NCBI GenBank assembly: GCA_030648295.1
Contig: JAUSID010000200.1
Span: forward strand, 1-64,000
Reading direction: 5' to 3'
DNA: 64,000 bases
Source: Opitutaceae bacterium
GTDB lineage: Bacteria > Verrucomicrobiota > Verrucomicrobiia > Opitutales > Opitutaceae
Below the pieces are notes generated by a model. The model saw only the letters and a program-made list of their open reading frames with translations, was not told the origin of the DNA and did not search any database. Made by a program: the position numbers and the translations under genes. Positions 5,925 through 55,462 of the stretch are shown here, one piece after another (the stretch's first letter is position 1; every line of letters starts with the position of its first letter).

Positions 5925-6365
5925 CATTCCGATCCGCACTCGCCAGCCTCCTCACGTCGGCTGCTACGCAAACAGCGCGCTCACGCCGCCACCGGTCCGC
6001 GGCTTCCGGCCGCGGATGGTTCGGGTTTTCCGCCCGGCTTTCGTAGCAGCGGAGGTGACGACGCTGGCAATCCTTCGATCGTCTGCTTGTGCTTCCAATC
6101 CGATCTGCGGCAGGATGCCGCAGCCACTGCGAACCAATTCGACAGCCATTGGAGCAAACGTGCCATGGGCGTCTCGCCCATCTTTGCGGCGCGGAGCGCC
6201 GTCCACGGGCCCTCTGCTGGCCAGCAGAGCGTGCCACTTTGCGCACCGTGCAAAAAAGTGAGATGCGCGCCTCACCAACGCCGGCATCCCGCGGCTTGCC
6301 CTCCGGGGATCCGTCGTCCGTAGTCCGTAGCCTGCTGCCCCGTCCGGTCCTCCTTCACCCCCACC
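5894..6365. repeat. Mosaic of dispersed repeat units
   Basis: Three copies of a unit resembling GCCGAGGTGACGAGGCTGGCG occur at about 5896-5920 (plus), 5937-5972 (inverted, ending in GGCTGCTACG) and 6042-6072 (plus, starting CGTAGCAGCGGAGGTGACG). The outer two can pair with the middle one. Palindrome-like blocks follow: GGCAGGATGCCGCAGCC, GGGCGTCTCGCCC at about 6165 and CTCTGCTGGCCAGCAGAG (6212-6229). No gene is supported in the stretch. Confidence 0.6.
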
Positions 6366-23785: not shown

Positions 23786-25717
23786 TCACTCCAACTCCGA
23801 CCACCGCGCGAACGCCACCGCCAGTTCTTTCTCGATGGCGTCGAGTCGCGCGGTGGCATCGCGCACGTCCGCGCCGCCGGTTCTGAAGAACGCGGGATCG
23901 GCCAGCTTCGCGGTGAGTTTCACCTGCTCGGCTTCGAGCGCCTCGATCCGGACCGGCAACGCCTCGAGTTCAGCGCGTTCCTTGTTCGAAAGCTTGCGCG
24001 CTTTTTTCGGCGGAGCGACGACGGCAGCAGCCGCTTTCGCGTCCTGCTTCGCCTTTTCCTCCGCCGCCACCTGCGCGGCGGTCTTGGCCGCGCATTCCCG
24101 CTGCCAGTCGTCGTACCCGCCGATGTATTCGGAAATGACACCCTCGCCCTCGAACACCAGCAGGCTCGTGCACACTTCGTTGAGAAACGCACGGTCGTGG
24201 CTCACGAGCAGCACGGTGCCGCCGAATTCCACGAGCAAATCCTCGAGCAACTCGAGCGTCTCCGCGTCGAGATCGTTCGTCGGTTCGTCGAGCACGAGCA
24301 CGTTGGCCGGCTTGGTGAACAGCCGCGCCAGCAGCAGCCGGTTTCGTTCGCCGCCCGAGAGCGCACGGATCGGCGTTCGCGCCCGCGTCGGCTCGAACAG
24401 GAAATCCTCCAGGTACGAAATCACGTGCCGCGTCCGGCCATTGATGGTCACGGTCGCATTACCGTCCGCCACCGCGTCCTGGACGCGCATGGATTCATCA
24501 AGCTGCGCCCGCAGCTGATCGAAATAGACGATCTCGAGCCGCGTCCCGTGCTCGACGACTCCGCTCTGCGGTGCGAGCTGGCCGAGCATCAGCCGGAGCA
24601 GCGTGGTCTTGCCCGCGCCGTTCGGGCCGACGATGCCGACCTTGTCGCCCCGCTCGATCCGCGTGCTGAAATTGCGGACGACCCAGCGGTCCGGTGGCAT
24701 GGGCGTCCCGCCCATGTTGGAAAGTGGCACGGGCATCTTGCCCGTGTTTGAAAGTGGCATGGGCGTCTCGCCCATGTTGGAAGGATTGCCCTCAGACCAC
24801 GGGCGGGACGCCCGTGCCACGTCGGCCCCATATCGAAAGCTGACATTCTCGCAGGTGATGACCTTGAACCCGCTGCGCTCGGATTCCTGCGCGGTCAGCT
24901 TCGCGGTGCCAGCCCGCTCGCGCCGCGCCGCGCGTTCGACGCGCATCGCCTTCAGCGCGTTGATCCGGTTCATCGCACGCGAACGCTGCGCCTTCACCCC
25001 GCGGCGGATCCATTCCTCCTCCTGCGCGAGTTTTTTGTCGAATTGCGCGCGCTGCACCTCCTCCGCCTCGAGCACCGCCTGTTTCCGCACCAGGAACGTG
25101 TCGTAATCGCACTGCCAGCCGACGAGCTGGCCGCGGTCGACTTCGACGATCCGGGTCGCGAGTTTCTTCAGGAACGCGCGATCGTGCGTGACGAACAGCA
25201 ATGCGCCGCCCCACTCGAGCAGGAATTCCTCCAGCCATTGAATCGACTCGAGATCGAGATGGTTCGTCGGCTCGTCGAGCAGCAGGAGGTGCGGTTCCTC
25301 GACCAACCCCCGCGCGAGCAGCACGCGCCGCTTCTGCCCGGCCGAAAGCGCCGCGAAATCAATCGTCGCGGGCAGTCCCATCTTTTCCAGCAGCCGCTCC
25401 ACGCGATCGTGCCGCTCCCAGTCGTTGTGCTCTTCGAAACTGCCGCCTTCCCCTTCGACCACCGACTGCACGGTGCCGGTGATGCCAGCGGGAACTTCCT
25501 GGCGCAGCGTCGCGATGATGACGCCCGGCGAGCGAAACACCTGGCCGTCGTCCGGATTCAACTCACCGGCGATGACTTTCATCAGCGTGCTCTTGCCCGC
25601 GCCATTGCGGCCAACAAGGCAGACGCGTTCGCCGCGATCGAGCTGGAGATTGACGCGATCGAGCAGCGGTGCACCACCGAAGCTCAGGCTGACATCGAGA
25701 AGACTGACTATGGCCAT
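23786..25717 (-). CDS. ABC-F family ATPase (Uup-like), with an in-frame repeat insertion
   Basis: Starting at the ATG at 25717 (MAIVSLLDVSLSFGG) the product has 643 residues. It contains two ABC domains without membrane segments: Walker A GRNGAGKST and GPNGAGKTT, signatures LSAGQKRR and LSGGERNR, and Walker B LLLLDEPTNHLD and VLVLDEPTNDLD. A C-terminal coiled coil (about 560-643) follows, as in Uup. ABC-F proteins act on ribosomes or, for Uup, on DNA. Residues about 296-340, between SFRYG and WVVRNFSTRIERGDKVG, are encoded by dispersed palindromic repeats and read METPMPLS-like units. They fall just before the second ABC domain, on a surface turn, so the protein may tolerate them. The C-terminal gene end faces the composite repeat. 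Confidence 0.93.
   Translation of the reverse strand: MAIVSLLDVSLSFGGAPLLDRVNLQLDRGERVCLVGRNGAGKSTLMKVIAGELNPDDGQVFRSPGVIIATLRQEVPAGITGTVQSVVEGEGGSFEEHNDWERHDRVERLLEKMGLPATIDFAALSAGQKRRVLLARGLVEEPHLLLLDEPTNHLDLESIQWLEEFLLEWGGALLFVTHDRAFLKKLATRIVEVDRGQLVGWQCDYDTFLVRKQAVLEAEEVQRAQFDKKLAQEEEWIRRGVKAQRSRAMNRINALKAMRVERAARRERAGTAKLTAQESERSGFKVITCENVSFRYGADVARASRPWSEGNPSNMGETPMPLSNTGKMPVPLSNMGGTPMPPDRWVVRNFSTRIERGDKVGIVGPNGAGKTTLLRLMLGQLAPQSGVVEHGTRLEIVYFDQLRAQLDESMRVQDAVADGNATVTINGRTRHVISYLEDFLFEPTRARTPIRALSGGERNRLLLARLFTKPANVLVLDEPTNDLDAETLELLEDLLVEFGGTVLLVSHDRAFLNEVCTSLLVFEGEGVISEYIGGYDDWQRECAAKTAAQVAAEEKAKQDAKAAAAVVAPPKKARKLSNKERAELEALPVRIEALEAEQVKLTAKLADPAFFRTGGADVRDATARLDAIEKELAVAFARWSELE
24697..24830. 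repeat. GGGCGTCTCGCCC palindrome cluster inside the ABC-F gene
   Basis: Three tandem units, GGCATGGGCGTCCCGCCCAT, GGCACGGGCATCTTGCCCGT and GGCATGGGCGTCTCGCCCAT, are separated by GTTGGAAAGT-like spacers and followed by ACCACGGGCGGGACGCCCGT. The same family occurs at about 6165-6240, 55270-55412 and 59700-60000 in non-coding DNA. Here it keeps the reading frame open. Confidence 0.8.
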
Positions 25718-25902
25718 GGGAACCCGCCACCCTCGCGACGACCCGCGTTGAAGGCAAGGCCCAGTCTTGCCGTGAAACGCGGCCGTGCCACGCGGGCGCC
25801 GCAAATGAATTTATCCGCTGACGGTCAGTGCGACCGGGGGCGGTCGCGCTCCCAGCGGACGAATCCTTGCCATCGCGTTCGCGGCCGGCAGCGTCGGTTT
25901 TC

Positions 25903-55142: not shown

Positions 55143-55462
55143 GATGGGGAAGGAATGGCGTGGATACGTGCTCGCAACGGCGGGAACAAGTTGTTTCCGC
55201 GGCATGGCGGGCGGCGAGTTGCCGGGAGCGCGACCGTTTGAAAGGCAAAAGCCGTCACGAGGAATTTCATGACGACGTTTTCCCTGGGAGCGCGGGCGTC
55301 TCGCCCGCAAAGGCGACTGTCGGCTTTTCGTCTGATTGATCGGACGATCACGGGCGAGACGCCCATGCCACTTTCAATGCGGGCGGGACGCCCGCGCTCC
55401 CAGGGTAGAATCCGGGTTGAACCCACGGCGGCCGATCGGTTTGCTCATCGGCACTGCCCCTG
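55143..55462. repeat. GGGCGTCTCGCCC palindromic repeats between divergent genes
   Basis: TGGGAGCGCGGGCGTCTCGC (55289 onward), ACGGGCGAGACGCCCATGCC and GCGGGCGGGACGCCCGCGCT form an inverted cluster of about 140 bp (55270-55412), bracketed by CTGGGAGCG and its inverse CGCTCCCAG. The promoters of the ABC operon and of the epimerase gene must flank it. Confidence 0.75.

Follow-up and report, generated by a model that had tools for sequence, protein, structure and literature searches.

The window analysed here is a stretch of 64,000 nucleotides from an Opitutaceae bacterium. It contains, on the minus strand, a gene for an ABC-F ATPase whose open reading frame extends back to a TTG at 25804, with the ATG at 25717 as the likely start. 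The product has two ABC_tran domains, ABC_tran_Xtn and ABC_tran_CTD in Pfam, and ABC motifs are legible by eye in its translation. The closest solved relative is E. coli Uup (PDB 9nlj_U, E 3.6e-159). The NCBIfam Uup model (NF050005) is the top one among the models listed, and since its score of 737 bits lies below the 900-bit cut-off, the protein is termed Uup-like. Palindromic REP elements are found both within this gene and elsewhere in the window:

23786-25717, minus strand: Uup-like ABC-F ATPase gene (open reading frame; Pfam, NCBIfam and PDB matches)
24689-24829, minus strand: hairpin turn at the A-loop of the second ABC domain (ABC2), 47 residues long, against 2 in most orthologues (alignments, structure model)
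24694-24716, plus strand: REP unit 1, GTGG and hairpin (pattern search)
24724-24746, plus strand: REP unit 2, tandem copy (pattern search)
24754-24776, plus strand: REP unit 3, tandem copy (pattern search)
24798-24820, minus strand: REP unit 4, inverted, forming with unit 3 a head-to-head dimer whose GTGG ends point outward
6162-6182, plus strand: further copy of the GTGG family with 2 mismatches, low coding score on either side
55289-55398: group of copies outside the ABC-F gene, with one good copy at 55349-55369, minus strand
55289-55309 and 55378-55398: outer palindromes of that group, AGCGCGGGCGTC-type or related AGCGCGGGC type, a distinct repeat mixed with the GTGG family
5946-5967: GTAG-type REP of another family, the GTAGCAGCCGA type

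The array in the ABC-F gene consists of four copies of a 23-base palindrome, a number in which a miscount of tandem units is possible because the genome is a 294-contig assembly. The original prediction described three tandem palindromes. The three direct copies are present, beginning at 24694, 24724 and 24754 with a period of 30, and are joined by a fourth, inverted unit (24820-24798). The reading frame stays open across the whole array, which is translated as DVARASRPWSEGNPSNMGETPMPLSNTGKMPVPLSNMGGTPMPP. The core of the unit is free of stop codons in all six frames; with the spacers included, one of the three units has a stop in one frame. The proposal that a palindromic repeat entered the gene in frame, with no stop, and was kept is borne out by the open frame and by purifying selection on the gene (see below).

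The insert had been placed between the linker of the first ABC domain and the second ABC domain, with a size of about 45 residues. The size agrees with the 47 residues of the turn, but the orthologue alignments put the insert inside ABC2, between 'FRYG' in the A-loop region and 'DRWVVRNF'. It thereby lies after the aromatic residue of the A-loop, a tyrosine, and before the strand that precedes the Walker A motif. Alignment with ABC-F homologues confirms that the residues are extra, most orthologues having a turn of 2-4 residues. The alignment with E. coli Uup (PDB 9nlj_U) stops at 328 and restarts at 333, skipping four residues (329-332) against 49 in the window protein. In an AlphaFold2 model built on a 34-row alignment, pLDDT is below 50 for model residues 303-344, with a well-predicted strand on each side, and also at residues 269-283 and 567-574. 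Mean pLDDT is 79.8 and pTM 0.44, and the domain packing in the model is therefore unreliable. On this prediction the REP insert is most likely a floppy loop within a beta-hairpin.

A degenerate 22-mer with up to 3 mismatches finds six matches in the window against 0.03 expected from shuffles, and a 21-mer with up to 2 mismatches finds 248 in the window's genome against none for the reversed-pattern control. Chance is thus excluded for the REP array. Three further occurrences of the family in the window had been reported; a search allowing up to 3 mismatches gives two, the copy at 6162-6182 and the group at 55289-55398. The second REP family, the GTAGCAGCCGA type, has 243 copies in the genome (G000; control 0). 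Element statistics were drawn from 199 elements on 69 sequences of the window's genome (up to 3 mismatches), about 34 of which are of the related AGCGCGGGC type. The tag is conserved at G 95, T 78, G 76 and G 96 percent, the flanks are unconserved, and the stem covaries (C-G/T-A 134/46; G-C/A-T 144/44). Neighbouring elements form 45 pairs with outward tags, 9 with inward tags and 53 in the same direction. The last start 24-43 bases apart in 40 of the 53 pairs, and the in-frame 30/30 spacing of the array is accordingly one of several natural spacings. A search of Rfam on both strands gave only MIR918, far below its gathering score; this is palindrome noise, and an RNA family reading was rejected.

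The element has a 5′ unpaired tag on a palindrome, has many dispersed copies and flanks a cognate RAYT in relatives (see below). It is a member of the GT[AG]G-tagged REP superfamily, GT[AG]G being the published REP tag consensus (PMC6006769). Most GTAG-20 elements of Opitutus terrae have a mutated tag, GTGG (Di Nocera et al., 2013; PMC3733652), and by that description the window element resembles GTAG-20 in its mostly GTGG tag and may belong to it. According to the same paper, head-to-head dimers dominate most GTAG REP families; same-direction neighbours are commoner in the window's genome than is usual there. An analogy had been drawn with the palindromic elements of Rickettsia (RPE). It holds for behaviour, as these are likewise palindromic repeats in frame in proteins (PMC3733652), but not for the kind of element. 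RPE-4 and RPE-6 are assigned in that paper to the CGTC type, whose repeats are described as not tied to transposase genes, whereas the window element is of the GT[AG]G kind, GTGG-tagged and RAYT-associated in relatives, and has no unpaired CGTC tag.

Other genes of the window's genome have also been entered. A codon-usage survey covered 92 REP sites near the first 100 perfect matches listed, with two REP types mixed, and by a strict filter 4 of the 92 are in frame (3 contig-edge sites were left out). The search for further proteins with REP units, suggested along with the original prediction, thus yielded in-frame inserts with domain evidence in the HrpB helicase (L241) and three more: an isochorismate synthase with six REP units, 69 residues in frame (L224:2457-2660), a solute-binding protein (L219) and a glycosyltransferase fusion (L029). 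A REP site in L182 lies in an open frame without a known domain, and the sites in L226 (upstream of a likely prepilin start) and L234 are doubtful. The apparent REP in L208, one of the 4 sites that passed the strict filter, was discarded, as it is a methyltransferase's glycine-rich SAM-binding motif that fits the pattern by chance. In the HrpB orthologues (25 rows) the insert falls in a length-variable linker; four rows have 8-17 extra residues there, and none of the 25 is a clear second REP carrier. O. terrae is listed as the species with the most intragenic GTAG REPs, with RNA helicases among the targets (PMC3733652). In-frame intragenic REPs are already known, and the ABC-F insert itself is a clear intragenic REP, ordinary in kind.

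The new detail is that REPs of two types recur at a single turn in four species. The ABC2 turn was read with a fuzzy pattern in 103 orthologue loci, a set that includes the window and counts some species twice: 84 have four residues or fewer, 9 gave no readable match and 10 have five or more. REP inserts account for six of the ten long turns (four species, the window among them) and non-REP lengthenings for four (L156 and L158-L160). None of the 103 loci is from a distant taxon with the same residues at this position, which agrees with the original prediction of an insertion. The deduplicated alignment comprises 63 orthologues and the window, with three short rows dropped and the first 40 residues left out. 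REP inserts are present in three of the 63 and in the window, every one at the same ABC2 turn. From residue 41 on, no insertion of six or more residues occurs at another internal site in the 64 rows; a 5-residue insertion elsewhere is seen in a single row, the very C-terminal end is longer by 6-9 residues in six rows, and the non-REP insertion of L156, a distant row, is again at the ABC2 turn. At the turn, the window and L122 have the GTGG type, in L122 as a dimer, and L121 and L112 have GTAG-type dimers. Across the insert, L044, a locus of G017, does not differ from L121. The GTAG family to which the L121 insert belongs numbers 53 copies in G017 (control 0) and is the one with 243 copies in the window's genome. 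The four inserts, compared by eye, show no consistent pattern of target-site duplication. One similar case of recurrence, recB of two Xanthomonas, is described in PMC3733652, and one turn hit in four species by two REP types exceeds it.

Purifying selection continues on the insert-bearing ABC-F gene. The dN/dS ratio is 0.118 between the window and L103 (insert versus empty) and 0.142 between L103 and L107 (both empty). Five insert-bearing pairs give 0.088-0.174 and four empty pairs 0.107-0.152. These values are alike, and the insert-bearing genes therefore look like working genes.

The best explanation, and a highly probable one, is that a non-autonomous GT[AG]G REP group landed in the ABC2 turn and was tolerated there. 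The group would be a mobile palindrome consisting of an outward-GTGG head-to-head pair and two tandem copies, and it would have come down in the exposed turn past the A-loop tyrosine of the second ABC domain. Its survival may be owed to the stop-free core in six frames, a net length that is a multiple of three, and a turn that tolerates a floppy loop. Movement of the element by a RAYT is something we infer here rather than observe. The effect on the ABC-F protein is likely little or none.

The hotspot probably reflects tolerance by the protein rather than a DNA target preference of the RAYT. A target preference would suit the freedom of the other internal sites from insertions of six or more residues, and RAYT cleavage sites can depend on a GTAG guide (PMC8266576). 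On the other hand, two differently tagged REP types use the same turn, and it lengthens without REPs in L156 and L158-L160, so that target preference is unlikely, though the best placed of the alternatives. Slippage or gene conversion between REPs, with no transposase, is less probable still as the origin of the array. Units 1-3 may have been duplicated locally once the element had arrived, as their tandem period of 30 suggests, and no cognate RAYT was found in the window's genome; against this, the first copy cannot come from local duplication, and many copies are dispersed at unrelated sites. It is also improbable that the insert was kept because it alters how Uup works, whether through the conformational cycle of ABC2, through ribosome contacts or otherwise. 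Four species apart on the tree do have inserts at the same turn, but these differ in sequence and length and are of two REP types, the insert is predicted to be disordered, and most orthologues examined have none.

A tree made without the insert columns needs four changes for the four carriers, and its strongly supported branches alone force three. A single ancestral insertion, with many losses and overwriting by other REPs in two lineages, draws on the REP family and left junction (GCCGAY-GTGG) common to the window and L122, but it is just as improbable as altered function, since the spacers of these two differ, two carriers have another REP type, and a single carrier clade is rejected (AU p 3.2e-6; quick tree, LG+G4), each carrier standing beside empty neighbours.

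The window's genome has 11 Y1_Tnp matches. The GTGG REP was not found near these 11 loci within up to about 1.5 kb, several of them being shortened by contig ends, and no close relative of the cognate RAYT was found in this genome (3 matches, best E 1.0e-6). Such an absence counts for little in an assembly of 294 contigs. In relatives, RAYT (Y1/HUH) domains are flanked by the window's GTGG REP (loci L095, L096 and L098; genomes G044, G062 and G001), and in at least six genomes, the compared genomes being mostly draft assemblies, a RAYT so flanked lies in frame inside isochorismate synthase (menF):

menF-nested RAYTs: L272 in G044; L274 in G062; L315 in G138; L316 in G118; L314 in G217; L321 in G001

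L321 is truncated by a contig end. Pfam, applied to three of the six carriers, found Chorismate_bind in L272 and L314 and Y1_Tnp in L272 and L321. The linker concerned holds a single REP unit in G017 and six units, without a RAYT, in the window's genome, the six-unit array of L224 being at the spot where relatives carry the RAYT. A further 25 loci have a linker of 19-39 residues without REP, and one was unread by the pattern (34 loci, carriers included). Among the matches listed, the search of 252 family genomes matched at least 230, nearly always once each, and more menF carriers are possible. The arrangement resembles the REPtron, or RAYT (TnpA-REP), in having a transposase domain with HUH and Tyr between its own REPs. 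It differs in that the nested RAYTs of relatives have no stop of their own before the remainder of the host enzyme.

A second RAYT lineage is found in frame inside alanyl-tRNA synthetase (alaS) in G020, G065, G138 and G150, in a single open frame of 1127-1164 residues:

alaS-nested RAYTs: L308 in G020 (the window's genus); L306 in G150; L307 in G138; L305 in G065; L310 in G041

L310 runs up against a poly-C contig edge, and of alaS it has the C-terminal part only. In NCBIfam, L306 and L308 score 795 and 801 bits against alaS (cut-off 457); against REP_Tyr_transpos they fall just short of the 80-bit cut-off, with 78.4 and 75.4 bits (E 4.9e-22 and 4e-21). Y1_Tnp is not among their Pfam matches at E 1e-5. 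HUH and Tyr motifs are present in all five nested RAYTs. In four genomes the RAYT-bearing alaS is the sole full-length alaS match, the others being short pieces. The linker varies in length, with eight or more extra residues in 15 of 31 rows, four of which hold the RAYT. L367 (G002) has a 55-residue insertion at the RAYT position.

The alaS lineage (at least 66% identity) occurs five times in 252 family genomes, each time at alaS. None was found outside alaS in those genomes, in a search at E 1e-15 or below with at most 13 candidates scored per genome, and the next RAYTs have 45% identity or less. In a tree of 31 chosen RAYTs, 14 of them ordinary free-standing ones and 30 with HUH and Tyr motifs kept, the five alaS RAYTs form one clade (100/100) and the six menF RAYTs another, less firm one (92/96). 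The four RAYT-bearing host alaS genes are not a clade (AU p 1.9e-81; three changes; 30 rows). The alaS-nested RAYT is under purifying selection, as dN/dS of 0.13-0.30 in nine of ten pairs, those with finite dS, shows. RAYT dS is at least as high as alaS dS in all nine, and a recent transfer is therefore unsupported; vertical descent with many losses is possible. Repeats beside the alaS RAYT are two-hairpin inverted repeats without the GTGG tag. The alaS case is stronger than the isochorismate synthase case, and the nested transposases are a more surprising result than the ABC-F insert.

More long open frames that fuse a RAYT to an unrelated enzyme were seen (L302, L312, L311, L303, L313 and L304). 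The partners include a creatininase (L312), an adenosine deaminase (L313) and a type I restriction subunit (L304), the RAYT-like stretch of L304 being without HUH and Tyr motifs. In L311 and L303 the neighbour resembles a DNA methylase by eye; L311 has no NCBIfam match at E 1e-20.

Perhaps REP/RAYT systems live inside proteins in this family, with RAYT lineages that are bound to a host gene and spread between genera in a homing-like manner, the ABC-F cluster being the transposase-free form. This broader reading is tentative, and we rate it as somewhat doubtful. In it, RAYTs would enter alaS or isochorismate synthase in frame at one fixed linker and, having no stop of their own, could be produced solely as a domain within the enzyme. 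Among the titles and abstract openings listed in literature searches, none reports a RAYT or transposase nested in either gene. In PMC6006769, unexpectedly long proteins were discarded as fusions or annotation errors, and such discarding could be why nested RAYTs have been overlooked.

The ABC-F case shows that a single loop of a conserved, translation-associated ATPase can be extended repeatedly by small selfish palindromes while the protein stays intact, and this lengthening makes insertion tolerance measurable between species. In the literature searched, no report was found of HUH transposases nested as domains in essential or metabolic enzymes. The nesting bears on how REPs spread and on how single-copy RAYT genes are kept, since a transposase fused in frame to alanyl-tRNA synthetase is not easily lost by frameshift.
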